The notes beneath the pieces are model-generated. The model worked only from the letters and a program-made list of their open reading frames with translations, made no database searches and was not told the DNA's origin. DNA of 64,000 bases from Ignavibacteriales bacterium. GTDB taxonomy: Bacteria > Bacteroidota > Ignavibacteria > UBA10030 > SZUA-254. The translations under genes and the position numbers were made by a program. The stretch's first letter is position 1; every line of letters starts with the position of its first letter. Where the stretch lies: the NCBI GenBank assembly GCA_016214905.1, contig JACRMQ010000007.1:757695-821694 (forward strand), written 5' to 3'. This document shows, piece by piece, positions 32,720 through 43,106 of this stretch.

Positions 32720-34021
32720 ATGAAAAAAAATAAACAAAAACATTCGGTAGAAACCACACTCATTCACGGAATGAATATCAGCAAAAAATGGGATTTCAGC
32801 CATCATGTTGTTCCTCCCATATCATCATCGTGCACATTCCGCCTGGAATCGGCTAAACGCGGCGCGCTCGGTTTCGCGGAGTTCGCTCATCATACGGATG
32901 ATGCGGCTATTTCATCAAGCGCCCCTATTTATATATACGACCGGCTTGGTGAACCGAACAAAGAAGTGCTGGAGGAAAATTTAGCCGCCGCCGAGAATGG
33001 TGAGGCCGCGGTTACATTCTCTACCGGAATGGCGGCAGTTGCTGCCGCGCTTGGATGTGTAACAGGTACGGGTGATGAAATTATCGCTCATAATATTCTA
33101 TACGGATGCACATACTCTCTGCTCACAAATTGGTATCCTCGCTACAGGATTTCGACAAAATTCATCGATATGAAAAATCCTGTCAATGTTCGGCGCACAA
33201 TTACACCGAAAACACGGGTAATTTATTTTGAAACTCCCGTAAATCCCACACTTGAATTGATTGATATTCAAGCGATCGTCAATGAAGTGAAACAGCAAAA
33301 TAAAAAGAGGCCCAAGGGAAGAAAAATATACGTTATCGTCGATAACACTTTCGCAAGTCCGTATTGCCAGAGACCTCTCGAGTTCGGAGTTGATTTTGTA
33401 ATTGCATCTCTGACTAAAAATATTTGTGGTTTCGGAACCGATATGGGCGGGGTTGTTGTGGGTCCCAAGTGGAGCTACGATATTTTGCTGCTATATCGAA
33501 AAGATTTTGGAGGTGCCCTTGCCGCGAAAAGCGCGTGGCCACTTCTTGTGTATGGTTTACCAAGTTTAGCAGCGCGAATGCGCCATCAAATGGAAAGCGC
33601 GCTGGCAATATCTACTTTCTTGGAGAGCGATCCGCGTGTTGCGTTCGTGAATTTTCCCGGATTAAAATCGTTCGCCCAATCCGACTTAGCAAAGAAACAA
33701 ATGCGAGATTATGACGATAAGTTCGCACCCGGCAGTATTCTTTATTTCGTTCTTAAGGGAAAAAGTCCGAAGCAGCGTCATAATAAAGGAGAAAAATTTA
33801 TTAACTTCGTTGCAAAAAATGCTTATTCAATTACTCTTGCAGTAAGCTTGGGTCATATCAGAACGCTGATTGAACATCCGAGTTCTATGACTCACTCAGC
33901 TATTCCTTTGGATGAACAGGTGAGAAGCGGGCTCGAGCCGGGTGGTATACGGCTTTCCATCGGATTAGAAAAACCGAGTGATATAATCAAAGATCTTGCG
34001 AATGCTTTAGACAGAGTTTGA
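32720..34021 (+). CDS. Trans-sulfuration family PLP enzyme, methionine gamma-lyase-like
   Basis: A 433-residue member of the Cys/Met metabolism PLP family and a paralogue of the 6916-8106 gene. Motifs are YIYDRLGEPNKEVLE, FSTGMAAVAAAL, the substrate loop ILYGCTYSLL with the cysteine typical of methionine gamma-lyase, FETPVNPTLELID, the PLP lysine in ASLTKNICGFGTD and SLGHIRTLIEHPSSMTHS. An insertion near NKKRPKGRKIY makes it longer than usual. It could make methanethiol, ammonia and 2-oxobutyrate from methionine. It lies between the degenerate radical-SAM gene and the CoA-binding gene in one probable operon. Confidence 0.88.
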   Translation: MKKNKQKHSVETTLIHGMNISKKWDFSHHVVPPISSSCTFRLESAKRGALGFAEFAHHTDDAAISSSAPIYIYDRLGEPNKEVLEENLAAAENGEAAVTFSTGMAAVAAALGCVTGTGDEIIAHNILYGCTYSLLTNWYPRYRISTKFIDMKNPVNVRRTITPKTRVIYFETPVNPTLELIDIQAIVNEVKQQNKKRPKGRKIYVIVDNTFASPYCQRPLEFGVDFVIASLTKNICGFGTDMGGVVVGPKWSYDILLLYRKDFGGALAAKSAWPLLVYGLPSLAARMRHQMESALAISTFLESDPRVAFVNFPGLKSFAQSDLAKKQMRDYDDKFAPGSILYFVLKGKSPKQRHNKGEKFINFVAKNAYSITLAVSLGHIRTLIEHPSSMTHSAIPLDEQVRSGLEPGGIRLSIGLEKPSDIIKDLANALDRV

Positions 34022-34026
34022 TCCCG

Positions 34027-34479
34027 ATGATTTCCAAAAAATTGATCGATGGTTTTCTTGAAGATGGAATATTTGCGATAGTGGGAATATCGCGTTCAGG
34101 AAAAAAGTTCGGTAATGTTATTCTGAAAGAATTAAGTGGAAAAGGATATACGCTTCATCCGGTTCATCCGAGTGCGGGAACAATCGATGGTTTTAAATGC
34201 CATAACAATATTTCGGCAATACCGGAAAATGTGAAATCGTTGATCATCGCAGTCAAACCCGACCAATCGAAAAATATTATACGCGAAGCGGCACAATCAG
34301 GCATTAAGAAAGTATGGTTTCAGCAAGGATCATCGTCTACGGAAGTTCTTGAGATGTGTTCAGAGTATGGCATCGAAGCCATCCACGGTGAATGTATCTT
34401 GATGTTTGTGTCTCAGCAAAAATTTCCGCACAACTTTCATAAATTTATCTGGAAATTGTTAGGGAAATATCCTCAATAA
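34027..34479 (+). CDS. CoA-binding domain protein (YccU-like)
   Basis: About 150 residues of the CoA_binding_2 Rossmann family. Seen: FAIVGISRSGKKFGNVILKEL (residues about 14-34), HPVHPSAGTIDGFKC, SLIIAVKPDQSKNIIREAAQSGIKKVWFQQGS and IHGECILMFV. These are single-domain relatives of the succinyl-CoA synthetase/acyl-CoA synthetase nucleotide-binding fold; the ligand is not established. I take the ATG at 34027; an in-frame TTG at 34018 overlaps the upstream stop. The 275-bp gap after it is AT-rich and carries the feo control region. Confidence 0.85.
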   Translation: MISKKLIDGFLEDGIFAIVGISRSGKKFGNVILKELSGKGYTLHPVHPSAGTIDGFKCHNNISAIPENVKSLIIAVKPDQSKNIIREAAQSGIKKVWFQQGSSSTEVLEMCSEYGIEAIHGECILMFVSQQKFPHNFHKFIWKLLGKYPQ

Positions 34480-34603
34480 AAAGAAATCTCTTTTTGCATA
34501 TCAAGAAGTTCTTACCGACTGCGAACAGATTTAAACCAAATAATATTTGTTATAGTATATCGTTTTTCAATTATTCATTTTTAAAATCTTATTAATATCT
34601 AAA

Positions 34604-34628
34604 TTATCGTGAATTTATCATACGATAA
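34604..34628. promoter_or_regulatory. Inverted repeat in the feo upstream region (distal)
   Basis: TTATCGT (34604-34610) and ACGATAA (34622-34628), perfect 7-bp arms with 11 nt between. Possible operator. Confidence 0.25.
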
Positions 34629-34676
34629 AAAAGATCATACTTGGAAAACTAAAAATGGTTATTAAATTGTTATACT

Positions 34677-34727
34677 GATAAGGATAAAATCATCCTTATT
34701 GAGATATTCTGATTTTACGTTAAAATC
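34677..34727. promoter_or_regulatory. Two inverted repeats just before feoA, possible iron-regulator operators
   Basis: ATAAGGAT (34678-34685) and ATCCTTAT (34692-34699) are perfect arms; each half recalls the Fur half-site GATAATGAT, but the spacing is 6 nt and not 1. Next, GATTTTA (34711-34717) and TAAAATC (34721-34727) form a tight hairpin or a second site. Position before feoAB supports metal control. Confidence 0.4.
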
Positions 34728-34754
34728 GGAGAAAATGAAAGAATTTTGAAGATT

Positions 34755-35018
34755 ATGGTTCATAGTAAAGATGTTCACAAATTGATATCAGTTAATAGCG
34801 GTCAATGGATTAAAATAGTGTTTGTTCCGCACGGAGTGATGCGAGCGCAGTTTGTTCGCTTGGGAATTCATGAAGGCGAACGGGTAAAATGTTTGGAACG
34901 GTTACCCGGTGGTACGGTAGTTTTGCAAAAAAATCGTCAACATATTGCAATTGGAAATCAGTTGGCAAAGCAAATTCTTGTGACGGTTAGCGGAGAAAAA
35001 GGAGCTCATCGTGACTGA
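34755..35018 (+). CDS. feoA: FeoA domain protein
   Basis: An 87-residue SH3-like protein from ATG 34755 (an in-frame TTG lies 9 nt earlier). It has the FeoA layout: VNSGQWIKIVFVPHGVMRAQFVRLGIHEGERV, then ERLPGGTVVLQKNRQHIAIGNQLAKQILV. It assists FeoB in ferrous iron uptake at the inner membrane. The stop overlaps the feoB GTG start by 8 bp. Two inverted repeats lie directly upstream. Confidence 0.9.
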   Translation: MVHSKDVHKLISVNSGQWIKIVFVPHGVMRAQFVRLGIHEGERVKCLERLPGGTVVLQKNRQHIAIGNQLAKQILVTVSGEKGAHRD

Positions 35019-36897
35019 ATTTCCATCCGAGAAGAAAATCGAACATCTTGAAAAACATCCTCACGCGCAACCAACACTTCTTGAAAAGAATAATCAAAAA
35101 TCTAAAATTGTTCTGGTTGGGAATCCGAACGTAGGCAAATCGCTTATCTTCAATGAATTAAGCGGCATGAATGTTGAAGTTTCTAATTACCCCGGTACAA
35201 CAGTGGAAATCACGAAAGGGATTTACCGTAATTATGAAGTATACGACACTCCCGGTGTTTACGGCGTCTCCTCTTTCAATGACGAAGAAAAAGTTGCAAG
35301 AGATGTAATACTACAAGCCGATTTGATAATCAATGTTGTTGATGGCGTTCATTTGGAGCGGGATTTGTTTCTAACCCAACAATTGATTGATATGGGAAAA
35401 AAAATCGTCGTGTTGGTTAATTTTATGGATGAGGTGAACAGGCATCAGATAGAAATTGATTTTGATCGCTTCTCGCATTTTCTCGGAGTTGATATTATAC
35501 CAATAATCGCGGTAGATAAAACTGGTTTCGAACGATTAGATGAAGCAATCCAAAATACAAGAGAGGGAATACAAAGAGAAGAAACGCATTCGATTTTGCA
35601 CTCGATGCTTAATATGGTAGGTTCACAGGCAGAGGCACTCCTTATATTGGAAGGTGATGAGTTTGTGGCAAAAAAACATGGCGTTCAGCTGGGGAATAAA
35701 CGTGATGAAATATATATTGATCGGCGTAATCGAGTTAATTACGTAATAAGCCAAATCATTCATGATGTTTCTGAGAAAAAAAGGTTTCCTGAATTATTCG
35801 GCCGATGGGCTATCAGACCGAGTACCGGAATACCAATTTTCATCGTCGCAATATATCTTGCATACCTTTTTGTCGGAAAATTCGTTGCTCAAGATGTTGT
35901 TAATTTCACAGAAAAGCAGATCGGTCAAGCACACTGGGAACCGTGGATACGCGGGTTAATAACCGACATCACTCCCTCAACCTCTTGGTGGAATGCTATT
36001 CTTGTCGGTGAATTCGGTATTATAACAATGACAACGACATATCTATTCTTCCTTCTCCTGCCACTGGTAATTGCCTTTTATATCGCGTTGGCATTGATGG
36101 AAGATAGTGGATACCTTCCACGTCTTGCGACAATGGTCGATTCAACTTTAAATAAAATCGGATTGAACGGGAGGGCTGTTATTCCCCTCATCCTCGGATT
36201 TGGATGTGTTACTTCTGCAACCCTTACAACAAGATTGCTTGGATCGGAGAGAGAAAAAACAATCGCAACTGCCCTGTTGCAATTTGTTATACCGTGCTCT
36301 GCGCAGATAGCGGTTATTGCCGCGCTGCTTGCCGGCGCCGGTATTTATCCTATGGTCGTTTATATAATTACAATTCTTGGTGTTCTTATCGCTATCGGAA
36401 CAATTTTAAACCGCTTTCTCGCGGGTGAGTCGGTGCCATTGTTATTAGATTTGCCTCCGATGCGCTTGCCGAAAATAAATAATGTTGTTCGAAAAACAGT
36501 TTTTCGCTCATACAACTTTATGAAGGAAGCAGCCGGGTGGTTTTTTGCAGGAGCATTAGCTGTTGGAATCGCGCAAAATACCGGAGCCCTTACATTCATT
36601 ACCCGATTGCTCAAACCGTTAACAACTTATTGGCTGCAACTTCCGGAAGCGGCATCAACAGCGTTTGTTATGGGTGTGGTTCGAAGAGATTTTGGGGCAG
36701 CCGGCCTTTATCATCTTTCATTAACACCGATGCAGATTACTGTTGCGCTGATAACCATTACATTATTCGTTCCTTGCATAGCATCACTGATGGTGATGAT
36801 GAAAGAACGCGGATTTAAAGAAGGATTTATAATCTGGATCGGTACCTGGATAGTTGCATTCGGTATCGGTGGTGTAGTTTCTCATCTTGTTCAATGA
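35011..36897 (+). CDS. feoB: Ferrous iron transport protein B
   Basis: A 628-residue Fe(II) transporter, slightly short for the family. The cytosolic G-domain (residues about 30-195) has G1 GNPNVGKSLIF, G2 NYPGTTVE, G3 YDTPGVYG and G4 region VVLVNFMDE; the expected NxxD motif reads NFMD. The membrane part (about 275-628) has the Gate motifs GFGCVTSATLTTRLLGSEREK and FVMGVVRRDFGAAGLY. It starts with GTG, with AAGGAG 7 nt upstream. It is coupled to feoA and to the zinc-ribbon gene after it by overlaps. Confidence 0.96.
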   Translation: MTEFPSEKKIEHLEKHPHAQPTLLEKNNQKSKIVLVGNPNVGKSLIFNELSGMNVEVSNYPGTTVEITKGIYRNYEVYDTPGVYGVSSFNDEEKVARDVILQADLIINVVDGVHLERDLFLTQQLIDMGKKIVVLVNFMDEVNRHQIEIDFDRFSHFLGVDIIPIIAVDKTGFERLDEAIQNTREGIQREETHSILHSMLNMVGSQAEALLILEGDEFVAKKHGVQLGNKRDEIYIDRRNRVNYVISQIIHDVSEKKRFPELFGRWAIRPSTGIPIFIVAIYLAYLFVGKFVAQDVVNFTEKQIGQAHWEPWIRGLITDITPSTSWWNAILVGEFGIITMTTTYLFFLLLPLVIAFYIALALMEDSGYLPRLATMVDSTLNKIGLNGRAVIPLILGFGCVTSATLTTRLLGSEREKTIATALLQFVIPCSAQIAVIAALLAGAGIYPMVVYIITILGVLIAIGTILNRFLAGESVPLLLDLPPMRLPKINNVVRKTVFRSYNFMKEAAGWFFAGALAVGIAQNTGALTFITRLLKPLTTYWLQLPEAASTAFVMGVVRRDFGAAGLYHLSLTPMQITVALITITLFVPCIASLMVMMKERGFKEGFIIWIGTWIVAFGIGGVVSHLVQ

Positions 36898-37130
36898 GAT
36901 TGATTGTGTCGGTCGAATTAAATAAGAAAACATTTGAGGAGCAACGAAAATCCGAAATTCGGCTTTGTTCGAAATGCAATTTCTCTGTTGATAATCCTTT
37001 CATCGAAAGATGTCCGCGCTGTTATTCCCTTCTATCCAAAGCGTCTGTAGACTGCGAGGGTTGTGTCCATAAAGTTTTGTGTCCTACCGGAAAATATCGT
37101 AAATTCAATCCTCAAGAGTCCGATCTTTAA
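36894..37130 (+). CDS. Small zinc-ribbon protein coupled to feoB
   Basis: A 78-residue protein with two ligand groups: CSKCNF ... CPRCYSLL (a zinc ribbon, residues about 25-44) and CEGCVHKVLCPTG (about 55-67). It overlaps feoB by 4 bp (ATGA), so it belongs to the feo operon. It is at the place where other bacteria have feoC, which can carry an iron-sulfur or metal site, but the sequence does not look like the winged-helix FeoC. A metal-sensing partner of FeoB is inferred. Confidence 0.7.
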   Translation: MRLIVSVELNKKTFEEQRKSEIRLCSKCNFSVDNPFIERCPRCYSLLSKASVDCEGCVHKVLCPTGKYRKFNPQESDL

Positions 37131-37200
37131 GTCGATTTTCTTTAATTTCAGACTGAATTAACGGAATTTTTATTCCACAAAAAATTTAGAGGATTTGTAT

Positions 37201-38529
37201 ATGAAGAGGATAAAAGTAATCATTATGGGAGCTGCCGGCAGAGATTTTCATGATTTTAATACTGTTTATCGTGATAATGAATTGTACGATGTTGTAGCAT
37301 TCACTGCAACTCAAATTCCTAACATCGACGGTAGAAAATACCCTGCTGAGTTAGCCGGTAAGTTGTACCCCAACGGAGTTCCAATCTACCCCGAATCAGA
37401 TCTGGTTTCCCTAATCAAAAAAAATAATGTAGATGAAGTAGTTTTCGCATATTCTGATGTGTCCCATAATTATGTTATGGCAAAAGCGTCTGTGGTTATG
37501 GCGGCCGGTGCGCATTTCAAACTTTTAGGTGCTCATCCGACGATGATAAAGAGTAAAGTTCCGGTGATTGCTATTGTTGCCGTTCGAACCGGTTCCGGTA
37601 AAAGTCAAACCTCGCGCAAAGTATGCAAGCTTCTTCGCGATATGGGAAAAAGAGTTGTTGCGATCCGTCATCCGATGCCCTATGGCGATTTAGTGAAGCA
37701 AAAAGTTCAACGCTATCAAACACTCGATGATCTTGTAAAGTTTGAATGCACTGTTGAAGAAATGGAAGAGTACGAACCGCACATTGTGAATGGTACCATC
37801 ATATATGCCGGTGTTGATTATGAAGCTATACTTCGGCAAGCAGAGCAAGAAGCAGATGTAATTGTTTGGGATGGCGGGAACAACGATATGTCGTTCTACC
37901 AACCGGATATGACGATTACGGTTGCCGATCCTCATAGGCCCGGACATGAATTGACTTATTACCCAGGAGCCGCGAATATTAATTTAGCTGATGTTATCGT
38001 TATCAATAAAGTTGAATCTGCCACTCGCGAGAATATCGATTCCGTACGAAGAAATATCAGATCGGTAAATTCAAAAGCTGTGGTGATTGAGGCGGCATCG
38101 CCGATATCTGTTGATGACGAAAATCTTATCCGTGGTAAAAGAGTGCTTGTAGTTGAAGATGGTCCAACACTCACACATGGCGAAATGGCTTACGGTGCGG
38201 GTGTTATTGCCGCGCAAAAATTCGGTGCTAAAGAAGTCGTCGACCCGCGTCCATGGGTTGTGAATTCAATTGCCGAAACATTCACGAAATATCCGAAGAT
38301 AGGAATATTACTTCCGGCTATGGGCTACGGCGGAAAACAAATTAAGGATCTCGAAACAACAATCAACAAAGTGGATTGCGATACCGTAATAATCGGCACT
38401 CCGATTGATCTTCGCCGGATTATTAAGATAAATAAACCAAGCGTTCGCGTACGGTACGAGTTGGATGAAATTGCTAAACCCGATTTGAACGATTTGTTGT
38501 CGAATTTTTTTAAGAATTACAAAGGATAA
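37201..38529 (+). CDS. P-loop GTPase/ATPase related to cyclic 2,3-diphosphoglycerate synthetase
   Basis: About 442 residues from ATG 37201, which has AGAGGA 7 nt upstream. Residues about 1-115 are a Rossmann-like domain (IIMGAAGRDFHDFNTVYRDN). Residues about 120-370 are a P-loop domain: AIVAVRTGSGKSQTSRKV is the Walker A, VIVWDGGNNDMSF the Walker B-like strand and VIVINKVES an NKxE-type base motif. Homologues are annotated as cyclic 2,3-diphosphoglycerate synthetase after the archaeal enzyme, but bacteria like this one are not known to make that compound. It stands 6 nt before argF and heads the carbamoyl-phosphate gene set, so a link to carbamoyl or arginine metabolism is inferred. Confidence 0.75.
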   Translation: MKRIKVIIMGAAGRDFHDFNTVYRDNELYDVVAFTATQIPNIDGRKYPAELAGKLYPNGVPIYPESDLVSLIKKNNVDEVVFAYSDVSHNYVMAKASVVMAAGAHFKLLGAHPTMIKSKVPVIAIVAVRTGSGKSQTSRKVCKLLRDMGKRVVAIRHPMPYGDLVKQKVQRYQTLDDLVKFECTVEEMEEYEPHIVNGTIIYAGVDYEAILRQAEQEADVIVWDGGNNDMSFYQPDMTITVADPHRPGHELTYYPGAANINLADVIVINKVESATRENIDSVRRNIRSVNSKAVVIEAASPISVDDENLIRGKRVLVVEDGPTLTHGEMAYGAGVIAAQKFGAKEVVDPRPWVVNSIAETFTKYPKIGILLPAMGYGGKQIKDLETTINKVDCDTVIIGTPIDLRRIIKINKPSVRVRYELDEIAKPDLNDLLSNFFKNYKG

Positions 38530-38535
38530 TCAAGC

Positions 38536-39456
38536 ATGAAAAAAGATTTCTTAACGATCGCAGAATGGTCTTCAGATGAATTATTTGCCCTCATCGATTT
38601 ATCGAAGGAAATTAAAAAGCATCCCGAAAATTATCGACACAGTTTGGAAGGAAAATCTATTGCGACAATTTTCGAGAAACAGTCACTCCGGACTCACGTA
38701 ACTTTTGATGTTGGAATTTACCAGTTAGGCGCGCATGCAATTTATTTGACGCAAGGCGATATAAGCCTCGGTAAACGTGAATCAATTTATGATACCGGAA
38801 AAAACCTGGAGCGTTGGGTCGACGGTGTTGTTGTGAGAACCTACGCTCATAAAACATGCACAGATCTAGCCGAAGCAATGAAAATTCCGGTAATAAATGC
38901 GCTGACAGATTTTGAACATCCATGTCAGGCACTGGGCGATTTTTTGACTGTTCACGAAAAAAAATGGAGCTTCACCGGAAAAAAATTCGTTTTTATCGGT
39001 GATGGAAATAATGTCTGCCATTCTCTGATGATATTTGCCGCTAAAGTTGGAATGAATTTCGTCGCGAATACACCCAAGGGATATGAGCCCGACAAAAATG
39101 TTGTAAAATTATCTGCCGCAGCGGCTAAGAAAATGGGTTCCACTATCGAAGTAATAAACGATCCGAAAGAAGCCGTCAAAAACGCGGATGTGCTCTACAC
39201 CGATGTTTGGACGAGCATGGGGCAGGAAGCGGAAAAAGAAAAAAGGTTGGAAATATTCAAGAGCTATCAGGTAAATAAAAAATTAATGGCGGTTGCTAAG
39301 TCTGACGCCATTTTTATGCATTGTTTACCGGCGCATCGTGGAGAAGAAGTGACCGATGATGTGATCGATTCGAAAAATTCCGTTGTATTCGATGAGGCGG
39401 AAAATCGGTTGCATACTCAAAAAGCAGTTATGCTAACATTGCTTAAGGGGGCGTAG
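38536..39456 (+). CDS. argF: Ornithine carbamoyltransferase
   Basis: A 306-residue transferase of typical length. It exchanges carbamoyl phosphate and ornithine for citrulline. The carbamoyl-phosphate motif, usually STRTR, reads FEKQSLRTHVTF here. The rest is regular: DFEHPCQALGDFLTV, FIGDGNNVCHSLM, TDVWTSMGQE (ornithine side) and FMHCLPAHRGEEVTDDV. The HCLPA motif marks ornithine rather than aspartate carbamoyltransferase. It is followed 1 nt later by carbamate kinase. Confidence 0.9.
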   Translation: MKKDFLTIAEWSSDELFALIDLSKEIKKHPENYRHSLEGKSIATIFEKQSLRTHVTFDVGIYQLGAHAIYLTQGDISLGKRESIYDTGKNLERWVDGVVVRTYAHKTCTDLAEAMKIPVINALTDFEHPCQALGDFLTVHEKKWSFTGKKFVFIGDGNNVCHSLMIFAAKVGMNFVANTPKGYEPDKNVVKLSAAAAKKMGSTIEVINDPKEAVKNADVLYTDVWTSMGQEAEKEKRLEIFKSYQVNKKLMAVAKSDAIFMHCLPAHRGEEVTDDVIDSKNSVVFDEAENRLHTQKAVMLTLLKGA

Positions 39457-39457
39457 T

Positions 39458-40408
39458 CTGAAAAATTCGGTTCTAATTGCGATCGGAGGAAATTCACTAA
39501 TTCGTGCCGGTCAAAAAGGTACAATTCCGGAACAATTTGCCAACGCCCGCATAACCGCTCAAAGTATATCAGATTTGGCAAAACTCGGATATCGTTTAGT
39601 TATTACTCATGGAAACGGTCCGCAAGTAGGTGCCCAGCTTCTCCGATCTGAAGCCGGTTCTCATCAGACATATACAATGCCGCTCGATGTTTGTGTCGCG
39701 ATGACACAGGGTGAAATTGGATATATTCTTCAAACTTCTTTGCAGTCGATTCTGAAATCGATGAATCTGCAGACATCGGTTGCGGGACTTGTTACGCAAG
39801 TTGTTGTCGATAAAAACGATCCCGCATTTCTCAAGCCAACAAAACCTATCGGTCCGTTTTACTCGCGCGAAGTTGCTCAGCAAAAAAAAGAAGAGCTCGG
39901 TTGGAACATCATAGAAGATGCTGCGCGAGGTTATCGGCGCGTTGTTCCTTCTCCTAAGCCACTCGATATTGTTGAACTCGATATCATCAAAGAGTGCCTT
40001 GAGCGAGGAATAATTGTAATCGCTTCCGGCGGCGGTGGGATACCCGTAAGTTTTGAAAATGGTTCGATTGTTGGCGTTGAAGCTGTAATCGATAAAGACC
40101 GTGCATCAGCTCTTCTTGCAAACCGGTTAGGGATTGAACGATTTATTATTTCAACAGAAGTAGAGCAAGTATATATCAATTTTAAAAAGTCGAATCAAAA
40201 ACCTTTAAGTACGGTTACTCTAGATGAAATAAAAAAATACCTGGAGGAAGGACATTTCCTTGAGGGAAGCATGAAACCGAAGATAGAAGCCGCGATAAAT
40301 TTTCTTGATGGAGGTGGAATGGAAGTAATAATCACAGATCCGGCACACATAATTGAATCCTTTGAAGGAAAAACAGGTACACGAATAAAAGGAAGGAGAT
40401 TGCAATGA
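39458..40408 (+). CDS. arcC: Carbamate kinase with a non-standard CTG start
   Basis: The in-frame family N-terminus KNSVLIAIGGNSLIRAGQKGT begins right after CTG at 39458; no ATG, GTG or TTG lies in frame before the first strand. AAGGGGG (39445-39451) sits 6 nt upstream, a good ribosome site, so I take CTG as the start, giving 316 residues, the usual length. A start at the TTG 39575 would cut off the GGN phosphate loop. Other motifs are THGNGPQVG, VIASGGGGIPV and EGHFLEGSMKPKIEAA. The enzyme links ATP, ammonia and bicarbonate with carbamoyl phosphate. It overlaps pyrB by 4 bp. Confidence 0.88.
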   Translation: MKNSVLIAIGGNSLIRAGQKGTIPEQFANARITAQSISDLAKLGYRLVITHGNGPQVGAQLLRSEAGSHQTYTMPLDVCVAMTQGEIGYILQTSLQSILKSMNLQTSVAGLVTQVVVDKNDPAFLKPTKPIGPFYSREVAQQKKEELGWNIIEDAARGYRRVVPSPKPLDIVELDIIKECLERGIIVIASGGGGIPVSFENGSIVGVEAVIDKDRASALLANRLGIERFIISTEVEQVYINFKKSNQKPLSTVTLDEIKKYLEEGHFLEGSMKPKIEAAINFLDGGGMEVIITDPAHIIESFEGKTGTRIKGRRLQ

Positions 40409-41328
40409 AATTAGGACATGTTATAGAATCTCAGCAATTTACGCTACCGATGCTGGTGGAACTTTTCGAAGTTGCGGACCAGATGGAAAGAATTGTCGCA
40501 CGTGGAGGTACACAAGATTATCAAAGCAAAATAATGGCTTCCTTGTTTTATGAGCATTCAACCCGGACGCGATTTTCTTTTGAATCTGCGATGTACCGCC
40601 TCGGCGGAAAAGTTTTATCAACTGAACGGGCGAATACGTTTTCTTCTGTTGCCGCAGGCGAGACTCTGGAAGATACAATTCGCGTTGTGAGCAATTATGC
40701 AGATGTGATTGTTTTAAGGCATAACGAAATCGGTGGTTGCGCGCGTGCCGCCGCAATATCTGCTGTTCCTATTGTTAATGCAGGAGACGGAAAAGGAGGA
40801 CAACATCCCACTCAGGCTCTTCTCGATTTGTATACAATTTATAAAGGCGTGAAAACACTCGAAGGCGTAAAAGTAGCCTTGGTCGGTAATCTGACAGATG
40901 GTAGGACGGTAAGATCGCTCGCTTACCTGCTGGGGAAATTTGAAAGAGTGAAATTGTATTTCGTTGCACCGGACTCATTTCAAATCAAACAAGATATACT
41001 GGATTATTTGACGAAACACAATGTTTGGTACGCTCTTGAGAATAATCTAAAGAAAATATTGCCGGAGGTTGATGTTGTATACAGCACGCGTATCGAACCG
41101 GAATTATTAACCCAACGTGGTGAACGATTGGAGACAATCTCACAATATTTTATTGACGACACATTACTGAAATTACTTCCGTCCCACGCGTTAGTAATGC
41201 ACCCGCTTCCGCGGTTGCATGAAATATCGCCGACGGTCGATACCGATCCGAGGGCTGTTTATTTCAAACAAACTAAAAACGGAGTGCTTATTAGAATGGC
41301 TCTCTTAGCTTCGGTGCTTGGTTATTAA
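40405..41328 (+). CDS. pyrB: Aspartate carbamoyltransferase
   Basis: A 307-residue catalytic-chain protein. It makes carbamoyl aspartate for pyrimidines. Motifs: YEHSTRTRFSFESAMYRLGG (carbamoyl phosphate), VLRHNEIGG, AGDGKGGQHPTQALLDLYTI and VMHPLPRLHEISPTVDTDPRA. The lysine loop of ATCase is in ANTFSS. The ATG overlaps the carbamate kinase stop, so it is cotranscribed with argF and arcC. No regulatory chain gene (pyrI) is next to it. Confidence 0.92.
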   Translation: MKLGHVIESQQFTLPMLVELFEVADQMERIVARGGTQDYQSKIMASLFYEHSTRTRFSFESAMYRLGGKVLSTERANTFSSVAAGETLEDTIRVVSNYADVIVLRHNEIGGCARAAAISAVPIVNAGDGKGGQHPTQALLDLYTIYKGVKTLEGVKVALVGNLTDGRTVRSLAYLLGKFERVKLYFVAPDSFQIKQDILDYLTKHNVWYALENNLKKILPEVDVVYSTRIEPELLTQRGERLETISQYFIDDTLLKLLPSHALVMHPLPRLHEISPTVDTDPRAVYFKQTKNGVLIRMALLASVLGY

Positions 41329-41354
41329 ATTATTGAACTGGGAGTAAAAAAATA

Positions 41355-42602
41355 TCACTTGTTAAGTTTTGCGCGCGGTTCCTTGACTATCAAGATCATT
41401 ATCAGAATTCCGATGATTGAACATCCCATTGCTAAACCGAACAACCAGTTATATCCGAATGCTTCGCTAATCCAGCCACCCAACAATCCTGAGACATAAA
41501 AAGGAGAGAGTATCATATTCATCAACGCGATGTAGGTTGAACGTCTCTCTGCAGGCGCATATTCCATCGCGATGTTATGCCGTATCATTAATTCCGATCC
41601 CAAATTCATTCCCATGAATAGAAAAACACCGTAAAAGATTTCTATAGAACTTGATAGAGTGCCGAGTAACGAAGCGATGAGCATTGCGCTTGCACCTGAT
41701 ATCAGAGCGACTTTGTTTCCGAAATGATCGGCTATGAATCCGTTAATCAGCGCACCGAGACCTTGACCAACAACCATTACAAGCGTGAATCTTCCAACAG
41801 CACTATCATCAGTGGCAAAATGTCGGAGTCCGTATACTGTAAAAAATCCCGCAGGCATAACAGCGAGCGTGAGCGGGATTGAAGCGTAAAGAAAATTCCG
41901 GAATTCATGGTTGTTCTTTAAGACAGATTTGAGCGATGCGAAATATTCGGACAACGATTCTCCGCTGATTGTATTGCTTGGCGTTTCTTCCACCAAAGCG
42001 AATTGAAGTAAAATAGATATAAGCTGTAGAACGAACGTGATCGAAAAAGCAATTGCGTAACCGTATGGGAAGTTAAATTCTATTAAAAGTTTTGAAAGCA
42101 ATAGAGAGCCGAACAGCGCACCGATACCGGCAATAGCGGTTCGTATACCGGTTAACCTTCCCCTCAAATGAGGTTCAGTCAGTTTTGCAAACATATCGAA
42201 CCAGAATGGCGTAGCGATTCCCATTAAAATTTGGTGTGCGGTAAAAAGTGATAGTATGAGTAATATCGTAATATGTTGATTATCAGCACCAAAAATGAAA
42301 AGTACACACATTATCAACAAAACATTAATACGCTGAAAAAGTCCCCAACGAATCGCCCACTTTTTTTTCCATTGCTGTCTTTGCGCGTAGCGGGCAGCAA
42401 AGATTTGGGGAACGTAAAGTCCGACCCAAGTAATGACGATTAAAGCTCCGACATACAAATTGTTTCCACCAAGACGTGTGATCAACGCCGGCAGAACTGT
42501 ATGGGGTGCAACAAACGAAGCGCCTGCCATGAATAATGCACCTTCAGCAAGGTTAATTGAGAAATTCCTTCGGTCCGAATTATTTTTAAACCTATTAATC
42601 AT
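41355..42602 (-). CDS. Major facilitator superfamily transporter
   Basis: A 415-residue protein with about twelve hydrophobic segments and a central polar loop (EETPSNTISGESLSEYFASLK). The family loop motif is present in an irregular form (ADHFGNKVALISG, about residues 275-287), as is GRLTGIRTAIAGIG. It resembles the MFS_1 group; the substrate is unknown. It is convergent with pyrB and divergent from the response regulator at 42735. The 42603-42734 gap is AT-rich without a clear operator. Confidence 0.85.
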   Translation of the reverse strand: MINRFKNNSDRRNFSINLAEGALFMAGASFVAPHTVLPALITRLGGNNLYVGALIVITWVGLYVPQIFAARYAQRQQWKKKWAIRWGLFQRINVLLIMCVLFIFGADNQHITILLILSLFTAHQILMGIATPFWFDMFAKLTEPHLRGRLTGIRTAIAGIGALFGSLLLSKLLIEFNFPYGYAIAFSITFVLQLISILLQFALVEETPSNTISGESLSEYFASLKSVLKNNHEFRNFLYASIPLTLAVMPAGFFTVYGLRHFATDDSAVGRFTLVMVVGQGLGALINGFIADHFGNKVALISGASAMLIASLLGTLSSSIEIFYGVFLFMGMNLGSELMIRHNIAMEYAPAERRSTYIALMNMILSPFYVSGLLGGWISEAFGYNWLFGLAMGCSIIGILIMILIVKEPRAKLNK

Positions 42603-42734
42603 TTTATTAGTAAAATATAACGTCTAAATATAAACAACATAATTTCACAAAGCTAATCGATTATAAAAATTGACTTTAGGAGTAAGAACTGGTATATTAA
42701 TCATAAGTCGTCTCCTAACCTATTATTTTTTAAA

Positions 42735-43106
42735 GTGAAGAAAAAAAACATACTGTTTCTTGAAGATGAAGACGAATTGTTGCTGACGTTGGGAGCGCTT
42801 CTTCGAGATCAGAAATATAATGTTCTTGAAACTAAGAGTGCGGAAGATGCGCTCAAAATTTTAAAAGAATATACTCCGGATCTCATCATCGCAGATATCA
42901 AGCTTCCCGGGATTGACGGGTTTGATTTTTTCCATGCTGTTCATCAGAATCCTAGCTATAAGAAAATTCCATTCATATATCTCACCGCGTTTAATAATCT
43001 GAAAGCTGCGATTCGGGCAAAAGAAGAGGGAGCTGCGGATTATATCACAAAACCTTTCGATTTAGAATACTTAATGGTTAGGATACGCGAGTTAATCCCG
43101 CCATAG
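42735..43106 (+). CDS. Single-domain response regulator
   Basis: A 123-residue receiver beginning at GTG (VKKKNILFLEDEDELLLTLG). Pocket LEDEDE, acceptor in IIADIKLPGIDGFDF (about residue 54), switch Thr in IYLTAFN (about 84) and Lys in YITKPFDLEYL (about 105). There is no output domain. It is followed by a hairpin (43124-43154). The partner kinase is not in the window. Confidence 0.9.
   Translation: MKKKNILFLEDEDELLLTLGALLRDQKYNVLETKSAEDALKILKEYTPDLIIADIKLPGIDGFDFFHAVHQNPSYKKIPFIYLTAFNNLKAAIRAKEEGAADYITKPFDLEYLMVRIRELIPP

Follow-up and report, generated by a model that had tools for sequence, protein, structure and literature searches.

The window, that is, the whole stretch of DNA analysed here, consists of 64,000 nucleotides from an Ignavibacteriales bacterium (assembly GCA_016214905.1, contig JACRMQ010000007.1, positions 757,695 to 821,694 of the forward strand). 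It includes, at positions 37201-41328, an operon of four genes coding for a GTPase-like P-loop protein (hereafter the GTPase), an ornithine carbamoyltransferase (OTC), a carbamate kinase (CK) and a paralogue of the aspartate carbamoyltransferase (ATCase) type, designated ATCp. Gene positions are given in window coordinates, and proteins were named with the curated cut-offs of NCBIfam and with Pfam. All genes are located on the + strand, with gaps of 6 nt (GTPase-OTC) and 1 nt (OTC-CK) and an overlap of 4 nt (CK-ATCp), in agreement with the tight run described in the initial annotation of this DNA. The absence of arginine deiminase and carbamoyl phosphate (CP) synthetase genes, also stated there, holds inside the operon; carAB is found elsewhere in the genome.

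The GTPase gene (37201-38529, 442 amino acids) has a reading frame that opens at TTG 37195, with ATG 37201 as the preferred start, and its product shows an N-terminal Rossmann-like domain, the P-loop AVRTGSGKSQ and NKVE in place of NKxD. The OTC (38536-39456, 306 amino acids) scored 417.5 bits with TIGR00658 (cut-off 280.85) and displays the motifs FEKQSLRT, HPCQ, HCLP and DVWTSMG, which correspond to the OTC motifs FxKxSxRT, HPxQ, HxLP and DxxxSMG listed in PMC4581275. The third protein (39458-40408, 316 amino acids) was assigned to ArcC by TIGR00746 (385.1 bits, cut-off 358.25). Its start was set at CTG 39458, 1 nt past the OTC stop codon and preceded by AAGGGGG; the ORF caller had placed it at TTG 39575. 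The start codon at the matching site is CTG in the related loci L012, L013 and L014, TTG in L016 and ATG in L017 and L040. A gene caller that accepts only ATG, GTG and TTG as start codons would truncate this protein by 39 residues. The last gene (40405-41328) encodes ATCp, with 307 amino acids.

The assembly comprises 3,315,596 bases in 10 contigs and is 99.64% complete. A search of this genome revealed a carB gene (TIGR01369, 1503.7 bits, cut-off 1027) with carA adjoining it, and four carbamoyltransferases: the operon OTC, ATCp, a YgeW-like protein and a canonical PyrB, the latter in a pyrR-pyrB-pyrC run apart from the operon (pyrR and pyrC named from sequence by eye). Pyrimidine synthesis is thus independent of the operon and CK is not needed as a CP source. 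No credible argG was found in the genome, where the best match was a fragment of 21.3 bits (cut-off 268.2), and the control search matched 14 of 14 genomes; arginine synthesis via citrulline therefore looks absent. The arginine deiminase family (PF02274) gave zero matches in the genome, with matches in 3 of 14 genomes in the control search, and no arcA-like match was found either. The only CK match at E 1e-40 is the operon copy. The initial annotation had suggested that CK could supply CP to both transferases, with the GTPase channelling or regulating it, and had named the presence of carAB and random genomic contexts of the GTPase family as counting against this; carAB is indeed present, whereas the contexts are not random. 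In this reading, ammonia and bicarbonate would be turned into CP by CK for the synthesis of arginine and pyrimidines. The tight gene order fits this proposal, as does the CK reaction, which is reversible. Nevertheless, since the genome has carA-carB as well as a canonical pyrB of its own, no credible argG by which citrulline could lead to arginine, and an operon ATCp devoid of Lys84 and Gln231, it is now considered very improbable. Taken by itself, channelling or regulation of CP by the GTPase is possible. A role of CK as obligatory anabolic CP source was rejected on the presence of carAB and pyrB. The operon OTC was likewise rejected as an enzyme of arginine biosynthesis for lack of a credible argG, with the limits that an assembly gap is possible and that the search did not extend to argH or further arginine genes.

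The fourth gene had been annotated as an ATCase, and the family model agrees with this name (TIGR00670, 288.7 bits, cut-off 236.95); the protein is, however, not the canonical PyrB of the genome and departs from ATCases at two substrate positions. Its best relative in the PDB is PYRB 6ypo (327.1 bits), which we take to be the plant-type enzyme from Arabidopsis. ATCp retains the motifs for CP binding as well as Arg at positions 167 and 229, whereas Lys84 of the 80s loop is replaced by Ala (FSSVAAGE versus FSSAAKGE in 6ypo) and the RxQxER motif reads RIEPEL, with Glu at the Gln231 position. According to PMC4581275, RxQxER is present in all known ATCases and the carboxylates of aspartate are held by R229/Q231 and R167/K84. 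Nine proteins of the ATCp type are encoded beside CK, in the window and in eight related genomes; the Lys84 position is occupied by A (four), E (two), T, R and G, and none of them has Gln at position 231. They form one clade with support 96/95 in a carbamoyltransferase tree that carries a warning of long branches meeting, one of them the G251/G253 pair; long fused ORFs were trimmed for this tree, and partial rows and rows without SxRT were excluded. A second, Lys-bearing PyrB was found in the own genome and in seven of the eight other ATCp genomes, G269 being the exception. In G251 and G253 the sole carbamoyltransferase found adjoins the GTPase gene and retains both Lys and Gln. From its residues, ATCp is read as a CP-binding protein with another or an altered acceptor, which TIGR00670 alone would name ATCase. 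In three of the related loci (L042, L061 and L068), carbamoyltransferase-like proteins beside CK and the GTPase have lost HPxQ and show YPVG, YPIG and IPLV instead.

A cluster similar to those for reductive purine degradation was found in the own genome at about 372-402 kb of contig G000:C7. It lies on two stretches covering G000:C7:365000-403000, L208 (7282-14162 and 17920-19500) and L123 (1-18000). It encodes xanthine dehydrogenase (TIGR02963, 572.9 bits, cut-off 467; TIGR02965, 1064.8 bits, cut-off 849.5), SsnA (502.3 bits, cut-off 444), YgeY (594.7 bits, cut-off 321), the YgeW-like transferase, a PALP enzyme, a deaminase and two PydA-like proteins (PF14691/PF07992 and PF01180); no CK was seen among the ORFs listed for it. 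In the reductive uric acid cluster of Escherichia coli, which this one resembles, CP is set free by YgeW and the genes include one for a CK, as described in PMC12507026; the phyla named there for SsnA differ from the Ignavibacteria-like host. With a single CK in the genome and none in the purine cluster, we infer that the operon CK serves the purine pathway as well, and the YgeW-like enzyme should release CP that feeds it. YgeW-like genes were clear in two (G472, G475) and weaker in another two (G268, G269) of 10 related genomes, the own genome excluded. The purine cluster also codes for an RnfC-like protein and for a BMC shell protein.

The GTPase matched no NCBIfam model at E 0.001; in Pfam it matched cobW at 22.3 bits (cut-off 20.7), with CbiA under its cut-off. 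A sequence search of the PDB gave cyclic 2,3-diphosphoglycerate (cDPG) synthetase 9sxb as a remote relative (E 5.2e-6). The AlphaFold model (pLDDT 91.3, pTM 0.90) has cDPG synthetase 8oru as its best structural match, with the same two-domain fold (Foldseek E 1.1e-18; Z 22.3, 368 residues aligned); the rmsd of 13.0 over these residues suggests a domain shift. Further fold relatives include LpxK (4ehy, Z 19.5, rmsd 3.2, 281 aligned), and weak Foldseek matches were obtained with the DUF1611/DgcN structures 2g0t, 2obn and 7xrj. In cDPG synthetase the P-loop residues K145 and R146 bind 2,3-DPG, as stated in PMC10690619. T130 and G131 of the GTPase align with them, in a stretch that scores low and whose register is fixed by the Walker lysine. 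The pair T-G occupies these positions in all eight commonest P-loop types of a 138-sequence alignment, made up of the window copy and 79 of 80, 29 of 29 and 29 of 30 sequences of three further sets; both haloarchaeal sequences (0 of 2 kept) were dropped by the motif filter. Synthesis of cDPG, already described as ill-fitting in the initial annotation, was rejected as a role because these substrate-binding residues are absent.

In the same 138 sequences, N269-K270 is conserved in at least 98%; counted over the eight commonest types, 110 sequences continue with x-D and 17 with x-E. Across the whole protein, 135 of 442 columns reach at least 98% conservation, many of them in motifs outside the G motifs. 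Judged from these motifs and the model, the GTPase is probably a separate, GTP-using family of the cDPG-synthetase fold. The G motifs also bear on a different explanation, in which the protein would not be a metabolic enzyme but would regulate or mature CK or a carbamoyltransferase, in the manner of the G proteins HypB, UreG and MeaB. The NKxD motif of most members, the company of CK and the fold relatives HypB (2hf8, Z 17.8, rmsd 2.9, 185 aligned), UreG (5xkt, Z 15.3, rmsd 2.8, 171 aligned) and MeaB (8dpb, Z 13.3, rmsd 3.6, 175 aligned) are in line with such a factor. On the other hand, the closest whole-length fold is that of a metabolic enzyme, 8oru, and the strong conservation outside the G motifs looks more like a substrate site. 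To our knowledge, CK and OTC need neither metal nor cobalamin, which also argues against a maturation function, and this explanation is regarded as unlikely.

The genomic distribution of the GTPase was analysed in the best 80 loci of 578 relatives, a set that leans to close kin and includes some loci with short flanks. The CK gene lies within 3 kb of the GTPase gene in 59 of these loci, always on the same strand (59/59), OTC within 3.5 kb in 29 and ATCp within 4.5 kb in 10. Among the taxa named in the records are Ignavibacteriae, Calditrichaeota, Neomarinimicrobiota, Acidobacteria, Zixiibacteriota and Krumholzibacteriota. A check of 24 genomes, four from loci with CK within 3 kb and 20 from the 21 loci that lack it there (all but L090), located CK elsewhere in 14 of the 20 and recovered it in 4 of the 4. 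Co-occurrence was scored at an E-value limit of 1e-40, at which weaker copies are missed. An even draw of 247 genomes from the phylum of the window contained the GTPase in 46 and CK in 37 (both in 35, GTPase only in 11, CK only in 2), and the two genes are at most 2.5 kb apart, by coordinates, in 26 of the 35 genomes with both. In 201 genomes of a second phylum, presumably Chloroflexota since the record of G264 is labelled Anaerolineae, the GTPase occurs in 36 and CK in 65 (both in 32, GTPase only in 4, CK only in 33). Fisher tests of this association gave 1.9e-30 and 6.5e-15, respectively, uncorrected for kinship.

Three haloarchaeal plasmid records carry GTPases with 55.2%, 54.5% and 51.7% identity, each beside CK, as judged from an annotated arcC in L124, from tblastn in L126 and from pieces of both genes in L125. 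In the latter (a Salinigranum marinum plasmid), an IS1595 transposase gene lies between the fragmented GTPase and CK genes, and the pair seems to have decayed together. The family thus tends to accompany CK in bacteria and in some archaea, in contexts that are non-random and with exceptions. The suggestion that it is tied to CP enzymes is borne out by its company of CK and carbamoyltransferases and must be restricted for the second phylum, in which the genes co-occur mostly apart. An arcA-like gene was found in 79 of the 247 genomes of the first phylum, none above the model cut-off. The idea that the GTPase replaces the missing deiminase found no evidence, 13 of the 46 GTPase genomes of that phylum also having an arcA-like gene.

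Other neighbours within six genes were counted in 76 of the 80 loci, the GTPase having been lost to overlapping ORFs in L021, L061, L066 and L068, and one member of each neighbour family was named by NCBIfam. Recurrent families include succinate-CoA ligase beta (19) and alpha (17), pyrroline-5-carboxylate (P5C) dehydrogenase (17), GlmS (16) and nucleoside-diphosphate kinase (ndk, 10). In several loci (L012-L091), the succinate-CoA ligase genes and ndk follow the GTPase-CK pair and P5C dehydrogenase or GlmS precedes it; an arginase gene is located two genes upstream in L016. Most of these recurrent neighbours, GlmS excepted, fit amino-acid catabolism and substrate-level phosphorylation. In 20 regions of the second phylum (L159-L178), covering 20 of its 36 GTPase genomes, the gene seen most often near the GTPase is argS (13 regions; Pfam was used to check one member), and an arginine deiminase family gene adjoins the GTPase gene in L166 (Pfam) and L167 (same cluster). 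Such varied company, together with the universal stress proteins encoded on a haloarchaeal plasmid that carries the GTPase and the separation of most GTPase-CK pairs in the second phylum, would suit a GTPase with an unrelated role, for instance in arginine supply, amino-sugar or stress metabolism, that shares only a general physiology with CK. Since the two genes are paired again and again in records from many labelled phyla and from both domains, and co-occurrence persists where the genes lie apart (32 of 36 GTPase genomes), this is thought to be quite improbable. Around the operon itself, feoA and feoB are located directly upstream (34746-36897), with similar neighbours in L013, and no connection to the operon is claimed. 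A Rfam search of window positions 34000-43000 gave nothing at the gathering score, and promoter-like and terminator-like sites were rarer than the shuffle means.

The operon is interpreted as a catabolic, energy-conserving CP module in which ATP is made from CP, with an estimated probability of roughly 55%. CK is most likely an ATP-forming sink, because carAB and pyrB are present, no credible argG and no arginine deiminase family gene were found, the operon CK is the only one found and the purine cluster, in which no CK was seen, should release CP. The OTC, acting on citrulline, and ATCp, acting on a related N-carbamoyl compound, would most likely work as phosphorylases that free CP, additional CP should be provided by the YgeW-like enzyme, and CK would form ATP from CP and ADP, with release of ammonia and CO2. 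The GTPase would probably be a GTP-using enzyme working with CK; most likely it acts on a small molecule in an NTP-dependent reaction and thereby produces, consumes or gates the pool of CP (or ureido compounds). A further proposal is made only tentatively: the GTPase would represent a novel GTP-dependent enzyme in CP catabolism that works with CK in Bacteria and Archaea, and ATCp would be a transcarbamylase from the ATCase branch with a catabolic role, its substrate being for instance carbamoyl-beta-alanine, carbamoyl-aspartate or a ureido acid derived from purines.

Several observations weigh against the catabolic interpretation. Citrulline, the presumed substrate of the OTC, has no known source in the genome; the YgeW-like transferase reaches 261.4 bits, under its family cut-off of 453, and the ORFs listed for the purine cluster did not include a HyuA. 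On sequence grounds, the reversibility of CK makes anabolic use possible. In the first phylum sample, no CK was found for 11 of the 46 genomes with the GTPase, just 6 of the 32 pairs of the second phylum are within 2.5 kb, the co-occurrence counts are uncorrected for kinship, and the frequent neighbours GlmS and argS have no obvious link to CP.

In the open-licence literature of PMC, nothing was found on COG2403, on sll0572 or on cDPG synthetase or its synthesis joined to carbamate kinase or arcC, and nothing relevant, judged by title and start of the abstract, linked carbamate kinase, OTC, gene neighborhood and GTPase. Synechocystis sll0572 may be a member of the family, located beside the CK gene sll0573. 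The sll0573 transcript increases in arginine-grown cells, according to PMC2242806. The haloarchaeal GTPase copy annotated as 'cyclic 2,3-diphosphoglycerate synthase' illustrates that a highly conserved family is named, in at least one public record, for a reaction that it probably does not perform; its tendency to accompany CK allows it to be placed, in a way open to testing, within energy metabolism. In addition, the Lys84-less ATCase look-alike is a concrete candidate for the catabolic ATCase-branch transcarbamylases, since PMC4581275 lists a catabolic ATCase and a beta-alanine transcarbamylase as still to be proven.

Compared with known systems, the proposal made for hyperthermophiles of CK as CP synthetase requires the absence of carAB, whereas carB and carA are present here. 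The operon shares with the arginine deiminase pathway (arcA-arcB-arcC) the catabolic logic of OTC and CK, from CP to ATP, and differs from it in the GTPase and ATCp that it adds and in a genome where no deiminase family gene was found. ATCp has plant-type ATCase (6ypo) as its closest solved relative, with the CP-binding motifs and both Arg positions in common; it differs at the Lys84 and Gln231 positions and coexists with a canonical PyrB. The reductive uric acid pathway has, in its YgeW-YqeA step, another reversed carbamoyltransferase that feeds a carbamate kinase, and most of that cluster is present in this genome; here, however, CK belongs to the operon instead of the purine cluster, and the YgeW-like protein is under the family cut-off. 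Finally, cDPG synthetase (8ork/8oru from Methanothermus fervidus; 9sxb) is the best whole-length match of the GTPase in sequence and fold, with the same two-domain plan. The GTPase is distinguished from it by T/G at the K145/R146 positions, by an NK motif followed by x-D or x-E in most members, and by a bacterial, non-methanogenic host in which its gene stands beside that of CK.

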